Virus record (IMG/VR): IMGVR_UViG_3300032420_000007
Span: 1 to 20,990 of that record
Reading direction: 5' to 3' (one strand)
Source of the DNA: a virus
Length of the DNA: 20,990 nt
Shown here: piece by piece, positions 5,403 to 19,357 of the stretch
How the letters are laid out: each line of letters opens with the position of its first letter
How positions within the stretch are numbered: the stretch's first letter is position 1
Made by a program: the position numbers and the translations under genes
The notes under the pieces: generated by a model
Told to the model about the DNA's origin: nothing
What the model saw: the letters and a program-made list of their open reading frames with translations, nothing else
Databases searched by the model: none

Positions 5403-6081
5403 CGGACGCGCCGGTTTGGCGGCTGCACTCAAGGCCCGCGCGATGTACTTCGCGTGGGGACGTGGCGCTGCGTGGTGGGGCCAGACGGACGTAAAGAACA
5501 AGACGTTCTCTGGCTCGCCGGAACGCTTCACGCTCGATCATGCGCCCGTCGAGTCGCTTTCCCTTGTCGATCCGAATAGTTCGCAGGTCTATGAGACTCC
5601 TGCGGACTACGTCTTCGACCCCAACTCGGGCATCGTTTCGCGCGTCAACGGCGGTGGTATTGCGCCCGGCGCGACCGTGCAGGCGCAGGCCGTCTATGGC
5701 ACCACGGCGCTCGGCTCGGGAGAGACCGCTTTGGTGAATGAAGTTGGCCGCCGCGTTGCAACGAGCGTGGAGTTTGTCGTTCCTGATCCGAGCGGCAACA
5801 TCTACACGCCGGGCGGCGAGAGGTGGACGGTCTCCGCGGTGGCGACCCGCTATCTCTACGTCGCAGCGCAGTTCGATTTCCTCGAAGCCGCAGACGAAAC
5901 GATCCGTGAAGTTGGCATTTTCGTCGATAGCGTTCGCGCCGAAGGGGTGCCTGAAGGGCAACTGTACTTGACTCCCGAAGATGTCGCCGAACCGGGATAC
6001 TTGCTCTTGCTCGATCGCTTCGCCGGCATCTCTCGGTCCCCGAGTTCCCGGCAGGGCTTCTCTTACGTTTTGGTGATTTGA
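5383..6081 (+). CDS. Conserved phage tail protein of unknown function
   Basis: A 232-residue protein between I and the DUF4815-type gene. It resembles a protein often found in Mu/P2-type alphaproteobacterial prophages after the baseplate genes: 'NSGRAGLAAALKARAMYFAWGRGAAWW' at the N-terminus (residues 6-32), an ETALVNEVGRRVATSVEFVVPDPSG segment in the middle (about 109-133), and a terminal 'ETIREVGIFVDS' strand (about 177-188), then FAGISRSPSSRQGFSYVLVI. The I-R-E-x-G-I-F-V element is also seen in tail-collar fibre N-termini, where it contacts the baseplate. An adaptor between baseplate and fibre is a reasonable inference, not shown. Start choice rests on the GGAGG at 5373-5377. The stop TGA overlaps the next ATG. 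Confidence 0.72.
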   Translation: MALLVNSGRAGLAAALKARAMYFAWGRGAAWWGQTDVKNKTFSGSPERFTLDHAPVESLSLVDPNSSQVYETPADYVFDPNSGIVSRVNGGGIAPGATVQAQAVYGTTALGSGETALVNEVGRRVATSVEFVVPDPSGNIYTPGGERWTVSAVATRYLYVAAQFDFLEAADETIREVGIFVDSVRAEGVPEGQLYLTPEDVAEPGYLLLLDRFAGISRSPSSRQGFSYVLVI

Positions 6082-9000
6082 TGGCCGACGCTCGCGACCA
6101 ACTGCCCGCCTATCAGAATACGTTCATTCGCGAGAAGGGGTTTCAGCGACTCGCGTTCCACTACGATCGCTTTCTGACCGCGAACGAAATGAACGTCGCG
6201 CAGGAAATCGGTGCGGATCGCGTGAAGAACATCGCTGACTCGTTCTGGCGCGACGGCTCGCTCGTCAGCGGCGGCGCGATCAATCTCAGTCCCATCGCCG
6301 ATGCCATGGTCACCGCGAAGCTTGCGGCGGCGAAGGTCTACATTCGCGGCGCGGTGCATGACATCGAAGCCCGCGACATCGTCGTGTCGGCCATCGGCAC
6401 CGTCGTTGTCGGCATCCGACTGCGCACCTACACCGTGAGCTATGAAGACGATCCGACCCTCAAGGGCATGGCACCTGGCACCCGTGCGCAGGGCGAGCCG
6501 GGCGCGACGGCGCTCGTCATGAAGGGGCGCTGGGGTTTCGATGGCGACGGCGAGGATGGCGACTTCTTCCCGATCTACACCATCAAGGACGGCGAGCTTG
6601 AAACCGTGCCCGTCCCCGGCATGGACGACGCATGGGCGAACCTTCTGGCGCGCTATGACCGGGAAGCGCATGGCGGCTACGTCGTCGAGGGCTTCAAGGT
6701 GCAGGCCATTGGCCTCGAAAACGGCAAGCAGGTCTTCACCGTTTCGGAAGGCACGATCAACGTCTACGGCTACAAGCGAACGCGGCCTGCATCGTATCGT
6801 TTGCGTGTGGACGAAGAGCCGGAAGTGATGCTGCTCGATGACGAGCCGCATGCTGTCAGTTCGGGTCTTCAGACGATCATCGTTCGCTTCGCGCCGATCG
6901 CCGAAATCGTCGAGGTGACGGTCATCGCCGAAAAGACCGTGACGCTGACGCACGGCTCGTATACCGGCGTGTCCGACGCGCTTCCCGATCCGACTGTGCT
7001 CTCGATCCGCAAAGTCAAGCAGGGTGGCACCGTCTATGATGCGGCGACCAGCTACAAGCTGACCGGCGCGTCCATCGATTGGTCCCCGGCCGGCCCCGAG
7101 ATCGCGCCTGGCTCAACCTACCAGGTCACGTATCGCTACCTGACCAACGTCACCCCGACGAACATCCAGCGCGACCGCTTCGACATCACCGGCGCCGGCG
7201 ACGACACGACTGCGTTCGTGAAGTATCGGACGAAGCTGCCGCGCTTCGACGCCGTCGTGGCCGATCAGAATGGTGCGATTTCGTACCTGAAGGGCATCTC
7301 GTCCCTGTACGCCCCGCAGGTCGTGGTCGTGCCTTCGACCCTGCACAAGCTGGCCGATATCGAGAATCAGTGGGGCCTTGTCCCGAACGTGCGCCAGGTC
7401 GCGACCGTTCGGATGCCGTTCAACGACCTGCGCGGCCTCGAAAACATGGTGGGCGACCTCTACGCGCTTGTGGCCGAAGAGCGCCTTCAGCGCGACGTGG
7501 ACCGCAAGGAGGTGACCGCCAAGCGCGGCGTGTTCGTGGACCCGTTGATCGACGACGACATGCGCGACCAGGGCATCGCTCAGTCTGGCGCGATCTTCAG
7601 CGGCAAGCTGTGGCTCCCGATTATCCCGACGATCACCAACCTGCCGGTTGGTACGACGACGCTTGCCTACACCGAAGAGAATATCTTCGAGCAGCGGCAG
7701 ATCACGGGCGAGACGAAGATCAATCCCTATCAGGTCTTCGGTCCGCCCGCGACCGATGTCACCCTGAATCCGTCCGTCGATCTCTGGACCGACACGGTGG
7801 ACATCTGGACTTCGGTCAGCACGTCGCGAACCGTGCGCGCCTTCTTCGGCACGCACGTCGGCAATATGTTCATGGGCGCGACCCAGGCCGTTGTCGATCG
7901 CGTCACGTCGTCGAATACGGTGGCGCAGGAAACGATCCGCACGCGCAACGTGACCTTCACCGTCAACAAGTGGGGCTTCAACGAGCTTCTGAAGTCGGTC
8001 AAGTTCGACGACATCGACGTGACCCCGGCCGGCCCGATCCGCGCCGACGCGAACGGAACGCTCACATCATCGTTCGACATCCCGGCTGGCGTCCCGGTCG
8101 GCGTGAAGCACGTCGCCTTCGAGGGCGTCGGCGGGTCGAAGGCCAACGGGCTTTATACCGCCTACGGCTGGACGACGACTGTGATGAACGAGCGTTCCTT
8201 CATCACGACGTTCTGGTACGAGTCGGACCCGCTCGCGCAGACCTTCCGCTTGCCCGAGCCGCGCCAGGTTCTCGGCGTGGATGTGAAGTTCACGAAGATC
8301 GGCGACCGCAACAAGCCGGTGCGCATCCAGATTCGCGAAGTCGAACTCGGCATTCCGACCGAGCGCGTCGTCGCGGAATCGATCATCGACATGCACAACG
8401 TCACTGCCATCGACCCGCTGTCGGTCGCACCGCGCACGGAAGCTGATTGGACCTTCGCTCCCTTCGAGCGCGCCACGACGCTGCGCGAAGACCGCAGCTA
8501 CTCGATCACGGTCCTGACCGAGGATGGCGAGCACTCTGTCGCAATCGCCGATCTCGGCGGCTTCGACCAGATCAACGGATGGGTGACGAGCAACGCTTTC
8601 ACGGCCGGCACCTTCCTCGACGGATCGGATGCCCGCACTTGGCTTCCGAAACCCGGTCGCTCGTTGACCTTCCGGCTGCGCGGCGCGCGATTCACGCCGA
8701 CCACGCGCACCATTGAAGTCGGCGATCTGGCGGTCGTGAACTGTTCGGACCTCATGCCGCTGCTCGTTGCCGAGCGGCCCGAGAACACGGCTATCGAAGT
8801 CGAGTTCGAGGCTCCGAACGGCGCGAAGTACATCACCGGGCCTTCGGTCAACATCCAGCTTCCGTCTGCCATCACCGGCACGCTGAAAGTGCGCCTTCGG
8901 CTGACCGGCTCGGCGACGTTGGCGCCGCAGATGCTCCCCTACATCCAGGTCGTGGCCGGCGCGATCCAGTCTGAGGGCGACTACGTCAGCCGCGCTTTCG

Positions 9001-9305
9001 ATGCGGGCGCCGACTCGAAGGTCCGCCTGATCCTCGACGTGTATCTGCCCTCGACCGCGAGCTTCGCCGCCAACATCCAGACCGCAGTCGGCGGCGATGG
9101 GTTGCCGGTGTGGTCGGCTGTGAATGCGCTGACGCTGGAAAAGGCGACGCCGCTCGGCGACGGATGGGAAGAGCGGCAGTACATGCTCGACCACGTCAAC
9201 TCTCCGATCACGCGCGCGAAGATCAAGATCACGGGTGGCCCCGCCGCTCGGTCGAACGTGCGCAACATCCGCTGCGTCGCGGTCAAGTCCACCACGGGAG
9301 CGTAA
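6081..9305 (+). CDS. Large DUF4815-type tail/baseplate structural protein
   Basis: A 1074-residue protein. The N-terminal part (about residues 14-150) has the DUF4815 pattern: FIREKGFQRLAFHYDRFLTANEMNVAQE, a 'FWRDGSLVSGG' turn (about 54-64), then strand-rich segments with AAAKVYIRGAVHDIEA and YTVSYEDDPTLKG. From about 150 to 580 the chain is mainly beta strand with VTYRYLTNV-type elements. The C-terminal half includes ESDPLAQTFRLPEPRQVLGVDVKFTKIGDRNKPVRIQIREVELG (about 714-757), a signature of large structural proteins of T4-like cyanophages and other contractile phages, followed by further beta sandwiches. It is probably a peripheral baseplate or fibre-bearing protein. P2 has gene H here; no H-like sequence is visible. 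A TTG codon one triplet upstream is a possible start, but ATG 6081 overlapping the preceding TGA is preferred. Confidence 0.8.
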   Translation: MADARDQLPAYQNTFIREKGFQRLAFHYDRFLTANEMNVAQEIGADRVKNIADSFWRDGSLVSGGAINLSPIADAMVTAKLAAAKVYIRGAVHDIEARDIVVSAIGTVVVGIRLRTYTVSYEDDPTLKGMAPGTRAQGEPGATALVMKGRWGFDGDGEDGDFFPIYTIKDGELETVPVPGMDDAWANLLARYDREAHGGYVVEGFKVQAIGLENGKQVFTVSEGTINVYGYKRTRPASYRLRVDEEPEVMLLDDEPHAVSSGLQTIIVRFAPIAEIVEVTVIAEKTVTLTHGSYTGVSDALPDPTVLSIRKVKQGGTVYDAATSYKLTGASIDWSPAGPEIAPGSTYQVTYRYLTNVTPTNIQRDRFDITGAGDDTTAFVKYRTKLPRFDAVVADQNGAISYLKGISSLYAPQVVVVPSTLHKLADIENQWGLVPNVRQVATVRMPFNDLRGLENMVGDLYALVAEERLQRDVDRKEVTAKRGVFVDPLIDDDMRDQGIAQSGAIFSGKLWLPIIPTITNLPVGTTTLAYTEENIFEQRQITGETKINPYQVFGPPATDVTLNPSVDLWTDTVDIWTSVSTSRTVRAFFGTHVGNMFMGATQAVVDRVTSSNTVAQETIRTRNVTFTVNKWGFNELLKSVKFDDIDVTPAGPIRADANGTLTSSFDIPAGVPVGVKHVAFEGVGGSKANGLYTAYGWTTTVMNERSFITTFWYESDPLAQTFRLPEPRQVLGVDVKFTKIGDRNKPVRIQIREVELGIPTERVVAESIIDMHNVTAIDPLSVAPRTEADWTFAPFERATTLREDRSYSITVLTEDGEHSVAIADLGGFDQINGWVTSNAFTAGTFLDGSDARTWLPKPGRSLTFRLRGARFTPTTRTIEVGDLAVVNCSDLMPLLVAERPENTAIEVEFEAPNGAKYITGPSVNIQLPSAITGTLKVRLRLTGSATLAPQMLPYIQVVAGAIQSEGDYVSRAFDAGADSKVRLILDVYLPSTASFAANIQTAVGGDGLPVWSAVNALTLEKATPLGDGWEERQYMLDHVNSPITRAKIKITGGPAARSNVRNIRCVAVKSTTGA

Positions 9306-10978: not shown

Positions 10979-11473
10979 ATGCAGAAGAATGGTTACGCTT
11001 TGGTGCGCGACGCTGATGGCGCAGAACTCGATTGGTGGGAGATGATCCCGCCTCGGATCGATGTTCCCGGCACGACGATTGTCGCCTTCGGCGCGGACGA
11101 GACCTGGCAGTCCGATGAGGGCTATCATCTCGCGCCGAGCACGCGCGAGTTTGCGGACCCGCCTGATCTCGATCCGACGCTTCCCGCGCCGCTCGCTCCG
11201 ATCACTCGCCGGCAACTGTTGCTCGAACTGAAGTCGCGCGGACTCATCACGGCACAAGAAGCGATTGCGGCGGCGACGAGCGGAGTTGTGCCCGCATCGG
11301 TGCAGGCCGTGTTTGACTTGTTCCCTGAAGCCGATCGCGACGAAGCGGTCATCACTTGGGCGACGATGTCGCAAGCCGAGCGTGGTCACCCGATTGTGCA
11401 AGCGTTGCAGGCGGTCTGGCAGTACCCCGACGATGAGCTTGACGCGCTCTTCCGGTCGGCGTTGTTGCGCTAA
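10979..11473 (+). CDS. Fibre-associated small protein of unknown function
   Basis: A 164-residue protein following the fibre tip. The N-terminal part (1-70) is a short beta domain with acidic and aromatic residues (EMIPPRIDVPGTTIVAFGADETW). The C-terminal part (about 75-164) has ITRRQLLLELKSRGLITAQEAIAAAT, then a turn with VPASVQAVFDLFPEADRDEAVITWATMSQAERGHPIVQAL. This helical module ('sRrQf...L...GlIt..EAlaa...G.iP') recurs at the ends of alphaproteobacterial phage fibre operons. A chaperone or accessory role in fibre assembly is inference from position. The stop is followed by an 85-base gap before the sheath gene. Confidence 0.68.
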   Translation: MQKNGYALVRDADGAELDWWEMIPPRIDVPGTTIVAFGADETWQSDEGYHLAPSTREFADPPDLDPTLPAPLAPITRRQLLLELKSRGLITAQEAIAAATSGVVPASVQAVFDLFPEADRDEAVITWATMSQAERGHPIVQALQAVWQYPDDELDALFRSALLR

Positions 11474-11476
11474 CAA
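11462..11476 (+). promoter_or_regulatory. Small dyad TTGTT-N5-AACAA at the start of the sheath leader
   Basis: TTGTT (11462-11466) and AACAA (11472-11476) are inverted around five bases that include the previous stop codon. In P2 a late promoter lies just before the sheath gene and its activator sites are TGT/ACA dyads, but with a 12-base spacer, so the match is only suggestive. No convincing -35/-10 pair was found in 11474-11558. Confidence 0.2.
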
Positions 11477-11519
11477 GAGATACCGAAACGGTCCCGACAC
11501 GTAGTTAGTCGCTCACTAA

Positions 11520-11556
11520 GCTTCTCTCAATCCAAAGATCGAGGATTGAGAGAAGC
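11520..11556 (+). promoter_or_regulatory. Perfect 14-bp hairpin burying the sheath gene's ribosome site
   Basis: GCTTCTCTCAATCC (11520-11533) and GGATTGAGAGAAGC (11543-11556) are exact reverse complements with a 9-base loop (AAAGATCGA). The right arm holds the only purine-rich ribosome-site candidate (GAGAGAAG), and the stem ends two bases before ATG 11559. No T-run follows, so it is not an intrinsic terminator. As drawn, the stem would block ribosome loading on the sheath mRNA unless melted or processed. Confidence 0.75.
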
Positions 11557-11558
11557 AA

Positions 11559-12971
11559 ATGTCCCTGACCGATTTCCTTCACGGCGTCGAGACTGTCGTC
11601 GTTGACCGTGGCCCCAGGCCCATCCAGACCGTCCGCTCGTCCGTCATTGGATTGATCGGTACTGCACCCGCCGCGAACGACGTGGCATTCCCCCTCGACA
11701 AGCCCGTGCTCGTCAACCGTCGTCAGGCGGCGGCGATGATCGGTAGCGACGGCACCCTGCCGCAGGCCATCGACGCGATTTACGATCAGGGCGGCGCCAT
11801 CATCGTGGTCGTGCGTGTCGAGCAGGTCGAGGACGAAAACGAGCAGATGTCGAAGATCATCGGCGGTGTCGATGCCATTACCGGCGAGTTCACCGGCATT
11901 CACGTCTTCCGAGCGGCTGAAACCGAGTGCGGCGTCTCGCCGATGATCCTGATCGCGCCGGGCTTCACCCATCAGCGCCCGATCGGCGTGAGCGGCCACA
12001 TCGTCACCGCCGCCGGCACCACGGACTACACCACGGCGAGCGTGATGTTCGCGGGCGGCGGGCAGGGCGCAGTGCTTCCGCAGGCGACCCCGATCATCGT
12101 GAACGGCAAGTTCACGGGGCTCGACTTCACGACGCTCGGCTACGGCATCACCGCCCCGGTGACCGCGACCATCGGCGGCGACGGCGCTGGCGCAACCGTG
12201 ACGATCCAGACTGGCGCAGCCGCCAATCCGGTTGTCTCGGAGATGAAGCAGATCGCCGACGCGCTGAAGGCGCACATCATCGCCGATGGTCCCTCGACCA
12301 CGGATGCCGCCGCCTTCGCGTATCGCAACGACCACGGCACCCGCCGCGTGTTCGTCGTCGATCCGAAGGTGTCGGGCTGGTCGGTGAAGAGCAACACCTA
12401 TGCGGTGGAGCCGGCATCGCCGCGCGTCGCCGGCCTGATCTCGCGCGTGGACAACGAACTCGGGTTTTGGGAGTCGCCGTCCAACAAGGAAGTCTACGGC
12501 ATCGGCGGCCTCGCGCGCCCGATCGACTATGCGTATGGCGACAAGAACAGCCGTGCGAACATCCTCAACGAAAATCAGATCGCCACGTTCATCCGCGACG
12601 ACGGCTGGTATCTGTGGGGCAACCGCACCTGCTCGGCAGACGAGAAGTTCGCGTTCCTGTGCGTCTCGCGCACGAGCGACATGATCGATATCTCGATCGC
12701 CAAGGCGCATCGCTGGGCCGTGGATCGCTCGATCACGAAGAACTACTTCGAGGACGTGACGGCGTCGGTCCGCGCCTACCTGCGTCAGTTGAAGACGCGC
12801 GGCGCGATCCTCGGCGGTGATTGTTGGGTCGATCCCGAGTTCAACACCGAAGCCGACATCACCCAGGGTCATGCGACCTTCTCCTACGACTTCACCCCGC
12901 CGTATCCGGCCGAGCGCGTGACCTTCCGGTCGCATCTCGTCTCCGACTACATCCGCAACCTCTTCGCATAA
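11559..12971 (+). CDS. FI: Tail sheath protein
   Basis: A 470-residue contractile sheath subunit, longer than P2 gpFI (396). The N-terminus (FLHGVETVVVDRGPRPIQTVRSSVIGLIGTAP, residues 6-37) is the P2-type sheath start, with the N-terminal arm used in subunit linking. The following FPLDKPVLVNRRQAAAMIGSDGTLPQAIDAIYDQGG (about 45-80) is a family hallmark. The section of about 140-235 is an inserted beta domain (TTDYTTASVMFAGGGQGAVLP and ATIGGDGAGATVTIQTGAA). The C-terminal half has SPRVAGLISRVDNELGFWESPSN, LNENQIATFIRDDGWYLWGNRTCS and the closing AERVTFRSHLVSDYIRNLF, all typical of sheath domain Phage_sheath_1C. It follows an 85-base leader with a strong hairpin, and the tube gene follows after 12 bases. 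Confidence 0.96.
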   Translation: MSLTDFLHGVETVVVDRGPRPIQTVRSSVIGLIGTAPAANDVAFPLDKPVLVNRRQAAAMIGSDGTLPQAIDAIYDQGGAIIVVVRVEQVEDENEQMSKIIGGVDAITGEFTGIHVFRAAETECGVSPMILIAPGFTHQRPIGVSGHIVTAAGTTDYTTASVMFAGGGQGAVLPQATPIIVNGKFTGLDFTTLGYGITAPVTATIGGDGAGATVTIQTGAAANPVVSEMKQIADALKAHIIADGPSTTDAAAFAYRNDHGTRRVFVVDPKVSGWSVKSNTYAVEPASPRVAGLISRVDNELGFWESPSNKEVYGIGGLARPIDYAYGDKNSRANILNENQIATFIRDDGWYLWGNRTCSADEKFAFLCVSRTSDMIDISIAKAHRWAVDRSITKNYFEDVTASVRAYLRQLKTRGAILGGDCWVDPEFNTEADITQGHATFSYDFTPPYPAERVTFRSHLVSDYIRNLFA

Positions 12972-18346: not shown

Positions 18347-18406
18347 TCTATGTCTGTAAAATTGCGTGGAAGCGGCGACTCAAATGGTCCTGACGGACGC
18401 GGAACG

Positions 18407-18447
18407 ATGGCTGATCATACTCTCACGAACTAATCGGAGAGAGCCAT
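18407..18447 (+). promoter_or_regulatory. Compound hairpin covering the lysin ribosome site and start
   Basis: ATGGCT (18407-18412) pairs with AGCCAT (18442-18447), and CTCTC (18420-18424) with GAGAG (18437-18441); the right arms are contiguous, while the left arms are split by a 7-base bulge. The ribosome site GGAGAGAG (18436-18443) is wholly within the paired region and the stem reaches into the ATG at 18446. The 99-base gap from 18347 holds no other clear signal; a CATACT at 18416-18421 resembles a -10 box but lacks a fitting -35. Confidence 0.5.
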
Positions 18448-19357
18448 GCAGTCGATCACCATCAACAACGGCCTTGCCTATCAAGGCGGACGCCGGTTGC
18501 CGTTTGTGAAGAGCCCGAACATCGGCGGCAAACTCAATCCGATCTACATCGTGATCCACGACACCGCTTCCGGCCTGAAGGACGATGGCGATGTGTCGTG
18601 GCTCGCCGATCGCGCGAGTAAGGTTTCGGCCCATTTCGTCGTCAGCCGCGAAGGCAAGATCACGCAACTTGTGCCGTGCAACGTGGTCGCGTGGCACGCC
18701 GGCAAGTCGCAGTGGCGCGGCAGGAAGTTCCTCAACAGCTATGCTGTCGGGATCGAAATCGACAATCCCGGCAAGCTTCAGAAGGTGTCGGAAGGCGTCT
18801 ACAAGAACGCCGTCGTGACGATCGACACCAACAAGAACCCGAAGCTGAAGGTGGAGTACGCGAAGTCGGATGCGCACGGCGCTGGTTATTGGCTCGCCTA
18901 TTCCGCCGCACAGATCGAGGCCGTCGAGGCGCTGTGCCGCTCGGTCGCGTCCGAATACGCGATCGAGGATATTCTGACTCACTGGATGATTTCGCCGGGG
19001 CGGAAGATCGACACGAATCCTCTGTACCCGCTGGACGCTCTTCGCAAGAACGTGCTGCGACGCGCGCAGTATGGCTTCGCGGACCTTTCGGCGGGAACCG
19101 ACCGGACGGACACCGATGAAAGCGGCGGCGAGGAAGACGTGGTGCTGTCCGTCGAGAAAGACCGAGACGAAAGCGCCACCAAACCCGGCAAGCTCGCGGC
19201 GTTCATCAAGAGCAAGTTCACGGCGGCGTCCGGCCTCTTCACCGGCCTGTCGTTGTCGTCGGTCACGGGCCTGCTCACTGATTGGAGGGTGATCACCGCG
19301 CTCGGTGTCTTCATCCTGATCGGGCTTGCGATTTGGGCGTGGAGCGAAAGGGAATGA
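18446..19357 (+). CDS. Endolysin: N-acetylmuramoyl-L-alanine amidase with C-terminal membrane segment
   Basis: A 303-residue protein. Residues 30-200 form an Amidase_2 zinc hydrolase that cuts the amide bond between muramic acid and L-alanine in peptidoglycan. Visible motifs are IYIVIHDT (H38, first zinc ligand), SAHFVVSREGKITQLV (61-76), VAWHAG (H84), SYAVGIEID (98-106), and THWMISPGRKIDTNP (178-192), giving H179 and D189 as the remaining ligands. An acidic linker (about 217-242) leads to a small helical region and a hydrophobic segment at 281-299 ending in charged ERE, consistent with a C-terminal membrane anchor. There is no N-terminal signal. Most amidase endolysins lack such an anchor. 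The next gene overlaps its stop (ATGA). Confidence 0.92.
   Translation: MQSITINNGLAYQGGRRLPFVKSPNIGGKLNPIYIVIHDTASGLKDDGDVSWLADRASKVSAHFVVSREGKITQLVPCNVVAWHAGKSQWRGRKFLNSYAVGIEIDNPGKLQKVSEGVYKNAVVTIDTNKNPKLKVEYAKSDAHGAGYWLAYSAAQIEAVEALCRSVASEYAIEDILTHWMISPGRKIDTNPLYPLDALRKNVLRRAQYGFADLSAGTDRTDTDESGGEEDVVLSVEKDRDESATKPGKLAAFIKSKFTAASGLFTGLSLSSVTGLLTDWRVITALGVFILIGLAIWAWSERE

Follow-up and report, generated by a model that had tools for sequence, protein, structure and literature searches.

The locus raises the question of why the ribosome site of a tail sheath gene should lie in one arm of a perfect hairpin. In the window (the whole 20,990-nt stretch of DNA that was analysed), the sheath gene is followed by tube, chaperone, tape measure, U and D homologues in the P2 tail order, and it is preceded by capsid, head-tail attachment, baseplate W- and J-like, and fibre-like genes. 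An earlier note had singled out a 14-bp stem with a 9-base loop in the fibre/sheath gap as the strongest hairpin of the window. This was confirmed in that the two arms are 100% complementary and form the longest perfect inverted repeat of the whole window (Table 1). A perfect 14-bp stem arose in 0 of 40 dinucleotide shuffles, the shuffle maximum being 13 bp; stem length by itself excludes chance only modestly, and the comparison with relatives does much more. Folding of the region 11470-11620, as the note had proposed, retained the 14-bp stem (z = -3.45 vs shuffles). The right arm covers the sheath ribosome site and ends two bases before the ATG, as had been claimed. The claim that it holds the sole ribosome-site candidate did not stand, since GAGG at 11541-11544 is a second one and pairs better than GAGAGAAG with the assumed anti-SD (-5.9 kcal/mol).

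Table 1. Coordinates of the features discussed, in window positions
Feature	Sequence	Position	Strand	Remarks
Conserved late-promoter upstream element	AAGAGATACCGAAACGGTCCCGAC	11475-11498	+	Putative activator site
-35-like hexamer	CCGACA	11494-11499	+	Upstream element runs into it
Predicted -10 box (TAnnnT)	TAAGCT	11517-11522	+	18 bases after CCGAC; 17-bp spacer from -35-like hexamer
Stem left (5') arm	GCTTCTCTCAATCC	11520-11533	+	Overlaps -10 box and start point; covaries with right arm
Predicted +1	A	11529	+	Within left arm; A at -10 box + 7 in every leader collected; placed by position
Loop	AAAGATCGA	11534-11542	+	Sequence and length (8-12 nt) vary among relatives
Second ribosome-site candidate	GAGG	11541-11544	+	Straddles loop/stem border; 14 nt from ATG
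Stem right (3') arm	GGATTGAGAGAAGC	11543-11556	+	Covers sheath ribosome site
Sheath ribosome-site candidate	GAGAGAAG	11548-11555	+	By position relative to ATG 11559
Tail sheath gene (P2 FI position)		11559-12971	+	phrog_23 E 6e-115; Pfam PF04984/PF17482
Second promoter-element copy, before endolysin		18371-18425	+	19.7 bits; orthologous copies in L220-L223
Endolysin promoter element	AAATGGTCCTGAC	18382-18394	+	
Endolysin -10-like box	GATCAT	18413-18418	+	
Endolysin predicted +1	A	18425	+	
Endolysin hairpin, weak 5-bp version		18420-18441	+	CTCTC 18420-18424 / GAGAG 18437-18441, in ribosome site GGAGAGAG
N-acetylmuramoyl-L-alanine amidase (endolysin) gene		18446-19357	+	PF01510, E 3e-23

An intrinsic terminator at 11520-11556 was considered and rejected. 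Such a terminator has a GC-rich stem and then a T run, and here the stem is followed by AAATGTCC. None of the terminator-like sites of the window fell in the fibre/sheath gap, and this stem was not among them. With no terminator-like site in the gap, read-through from the upstream operon is plausible.

We sought to characterize the gap by comparison with relatives. Sheath homologues of 84-90% identity were found in IMG/VR contigs and Bradyrhizobium genomes, and their gaps align despite a differing upstream gene. In 21 distinct sheath leaders the gap was found to hold a conserved late-promoter-like block, usually AACGGTCCCGAC-N18-TAnnnT-N6-A, and the consensus from the relatives' alignment reads AAGGGATACCGAAACGGTCCCGAC, 18 bases, TAnnnT, six bases and A. 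The upstream element is conserved regardless of the 5' gene. Its window copy scored 38.2 bits with a profile for which a Markov control gave one match above 15 bits per Mb, and the exact 11-mer ACGGTCCCGAC occurs as one copy in each of 10 related contigs. TAnnnT was present at the fixed spacing in all distinct sheath leaders collected; the box and its spacing were part of one leader-collection pattern, and the unfiltered alignment gave the same result. This includes L019 and L177 (approximately 70% identity to the window sheath group), in which the -10 box and spacing are kept and the upstream element has changed. From the -35-like CCGACA, the 17-bp spacer and the conserved block, we infer that the block is a working promoter with its exact start at A11529. 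The left arm begins within the predicted -10 box and continues past this position.

Further copies of the motif were looked for in the window by counting mismatches, and the 13 loose matches obtained were not above chance, so that a weighted profile was needed. The exact pattern ACGGTCCCGAC-N18-TAnnnT occurred in 77 stretches across IMG/VR; outside this phage group they resemble chance matches within genes. It was also noted that neither Ogr/Delta nor Mor family activators, as candidate readers of the elements at 11475-11498 and 18371-18394, were found in seven related contigs; PF04606 (Ogr/Delta) had no match there, in records that are possibly incomplete. A literature search on Bradyrhizobium phage late promoters returned nothing relevant.

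The position of the predicted start determines how much of the stem each transcript could form. An mRNA from the sheath gene's own promoter would retain at most 5 bp (AAUCC/GGAUU), and the outer nine pairs need an upstream start. For the window, the computed cost of opening -16 to +3 was 24.4 kcal/mol in read-through RNA vs 6.2 in the +1 RNA, and across 12 sheath leaders it was 13-24 vs 3-9 kcal/mol. Among 18 window gene starts, the same truncation gained 18.1 kcal/mol at the sheath gene and from -6.4 to +6.4 at the others; over 201 starts in related contigs, some sheath starts included, the gain averaged 0.8 kcal/mol (sd 3.2).

We consider it likely, on computed evidence, that this arrangement is a promoter-embedded translational lock that insulates the sheath operon. 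In this design, the late promoter of the sheath-tube operon would be placed in the fibre/sheath gap, the hairpin's 5' arm holding the -10 box and the start point and its 3' arm being the sheath ribosome site. Read-through mRNA from the upstream head/baseplate/fibre operon would carry both arms, fold and block sheath translation, and mRNA from the own promoter, lacking most of the 5' arm, would leave the ribosome site open. As the biological reason we infer that restricting sheath synthesis to firing of the own promoter would fix when and how much sheath is made and protect against stray transcription. The earlier note had named a start inside the left arm among its refuting conditions, as one that would prevent the stem from forming. 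Such a start is indeed predicted, at A11529, yet its effect is limited to mRNA begun there, and the stem can still form in read-through mRNA.

The note had also proposed a search for compensatory base changes in the same gap of relatives, and these were found. Double changes in the outer pairs were observed in L010 (GTTTCT/AGAAAC), L152 (GGTTCT/AGAACC), L064 (GTGCT/AGCAC) and L004 (TTGTT/AACAA). Counted on 11 distinct arm pairs, with statistics that ignore shared ancestry, the arm covariation score was 0.184 vs 0.088 +/- 0.019 for shuffled arms (0/500), and slid registers reached at most 0.069. Eleven cells had changed on both sides; pair 2 occurred as GC/UA/CG, pair 4 as UA/GC and pair 5 as CG/UA. 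Permutation of the right arm for pairs 9-14 gave p = 0.0003 (kinship ignored). The covarying pairs 2, 4 and 5 all use left-arm bases that lie 5' of +1, so these pairs would form only in longer transcripts. When arms were exchanged among the sheath leaders, the own pair was better, with 0 of 20,000 permutations reaching it (n = 12; kinship ignored).

These data bear on whether the hairpin could be a by-product without function, in which a CT-rich initial sequence and a GA-rich ribosome site pair accidentally. Composition makes CTCTC-like starts complementary to GAGAG-like ribosome sites, and swapped sheath arms still averaged -13.4 kcal/mol. However, such a by-product is extremely unlikely given the superiority of own over swapped pairing, the outlying position of the sheath gene among the 201 starts and the specific double changes (GTG/CAC in L064, GTT/AAC in L010, GG/CC in L152, TTGTT/AACAA in L004).

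The stem was variable in its outer part. A perfect 14-bp helix was found in the window, L010 and L152, and would suit an RNase III-type processing site separating the upstream mRNA from the sheath mRNA, an operon separation that would also fit the terminators of other relatives described below. In the L005 type, common among relatives, and in L003 and L022, only 7-8 inner pairs are kept and outer mismatches interrupt the helix. Many of the comparable hairpins before endolysin and kinase-like genes have just 4-9 bp, and helices of this length are short for RNase III. Processing does not account for promoter, start point and arm coinciding, and we regard it as very unlikely.

Another possibility was that all sheath mRNA is under an RNA switch or brake, the whole stem being in the main transcript and opened by a protein, small RNA or temperature, as the earlier note had suggested. 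The covariation does suggest some RNA in which the full stem is formed. Against this reading, every leader has a start predicted within the left arm by the promoter-like block, and the arm duplex ranges from approximately -12 to -25 kcal/mol among closely related sheath leaders, unlike a tuned thermometer. Rfam covariance models gave no match at the gathering score, and the best match at a relaxed threshold was a microRNA model at chance level (E 0.66). Such a switch appears decidedly improbable, and it is not needed if the choice of promoter sets the state of the stem.

The lock also has points against it. Outer stems are interrupted in the three types named above, the arms of L177 pair weakly, and the endolysin hairpin of the window is weak. 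Because the upstream and sheath operons are both late, the benefit would be less obvious than in T4.

In other relatives the same gap holds a different device. Mica and Mano have annotated terminators between fibre and sheath, and a GC-rich stem with a T run was found in this gap in Persinger, PPpW-3, Bas97, L068-L070 and L194; three Bradyrhizobium loci are among the relatives with an intrinsic terminator here. The leaders of L068-L070, whose sheath has 40% identity, were left out of the alignment. With terminators in the gap of these relatives and a predicted lock in that of the window, the two appear to meet a shared aim, which is to keep upstream transcription from expressing the sheath. 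The Mica, Mano and PPpW-3 terminators thus share the gap and the apparent job, but they stop transcription, whereas the block proposed here is on translation.

We then compared the arrangement with known systems. Longer transcripts of T4 e, soc, 49 and I-TevI hide the ribosome site, and a late promoter whose start lies within the 5' strand has been described as freeing it in e and I-TevI (PMC3014915, PMC2988022). By prediction, the sheath leader works like the control of these T4 genes. Computation and covariation place its ribosome site in a stable helix on the longer RNA, and the -10 box and its spacing predict an own start within the 5' arm; in T4 gene e, the DNA encoding the 5' strand contains a late promoter. 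A lysis gene, the endolysin, is also among the genes with a similar layout in the window phage group, which is apparently temperate and Bradyrhizobium-associated. However, the T4 late promoter TATAAATA does not occur in the sheath leader, which has TAnnnT (TAAGCT) and a conserved upstream element, and the phages are unrelated; the likeness would be one of function and does not come from descent. A further difference is that the clearest case here, predicted from sequence, concerns a structural gene located where two late operons meet.

In P2, a late promoter driven by Ogr precedes FI. The earlier note had rightly taken the fibre/sheath gap as the counterpart of this P2 gap. The two share this border and the order of the genes (FI FII E T U D homologues), but the upstream element differs here and an Ogr_Delta homologue was absent from the 7 related contigs. 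The IS10 transposase gene is protected from external promoters by an inverted repeat that masks its ribosome site in read-through mRNA only, and the element's own promoter starts inside the repeat. The sheath leader would share both properties, in a phage structural operon instead of a transposon gene. Our literature search returned no report of a promoter-embedded lock design for a sheath gene.

If the lock is correct, an unrelated phage group would have evolved the T4 lysozyme trick independently, where two late operons meet, and would keep the tail sheath under a promoter of its own even though upstream transcription probably runs in. The lock would also offer a testable view of why sheath expression stands apart from that of the baseplate and fibre, and a simple signature, with a promoter box in one arm and a ribosome site in the other, that could be sought in other phages and mobile elements.

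The upstream-element profile identified another copy before a kinase-like gene, in addition to the endolysin copy. Downstream of this kinase-like gene is a putative terminase small subunit gene. In endolysin and kinase-like leaders, promoter-side bases pair with the ribosome site through sequences that differ from those of the sheath (ATACTCTCC/GGAGAGTGT, CATGCTCTC/GAGAGTGTG, ATGCTC/GAGCAT). The endolysin arm duplex was -7.5 kcal/mol in the window and -16 to -18.5 in L220, L222 and L223. Own arms paired better than swapped arms for the endolysin (p = 0.024, n = 5) and kinase-like leaders (p = 0.009, n = 10), with kinship ignored in both. The -10 spacing is not clearly kept in the kinase-like leaders, and a start point was not assigned to them.

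The changed sequences also bear on a DNA operator, in which a dimeric regulator would bind the inverted repeat across the start point. Operators typically lie across -10/+1, as this repeat does, and close relatives hardly vary in the inner 8 bp of the sheath stem. However, the repeat sequence differs in the L019, endolysin and kinase-like leaders and only complementarity is kept, which favours RNA pairing over an operator of fixed sequence. A loop of 8 to 12 nt changes the spacing of the arms, and the core was confined to the sheath site in those phage contigs and host genomes that matched. We consider an operator improbable. Turning back to the lock, it may extend beyond the sheath gene, although we hold this more tentatively: the sheath, endolysin and kinase-like/head operons could each combine a related upstream element with a distinct hairpin masking the first ribosome site on read-through only. 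It is conceivable, at somewhat less than an even chance, that such locks serve as a general insulation of neighbouring late operons and replace the terminators of relatives.

Several minor observations were made. Between the baseplate and fibre genes, the window contains a gene of 1075 aa (6078-9305) with a DUF4815 domain (PF16075, E 2e-158; phrog_877), for which these Pfam and phrog matches give no function. At about 57.8 kb of contig G003 (L091:17828, minus strand), a second sheath-like start was noted with its own late-promoter element and the stem TTGGTCTCAATCC/GGGTTGAGAgCCAA. Finally, L102 and L152 are different sheath promoters near opposite ends of a single 64-kb contig (IMGVR_UViG_3300046665_000229), which represents either a pair of prophages or a single element read beyond its end.
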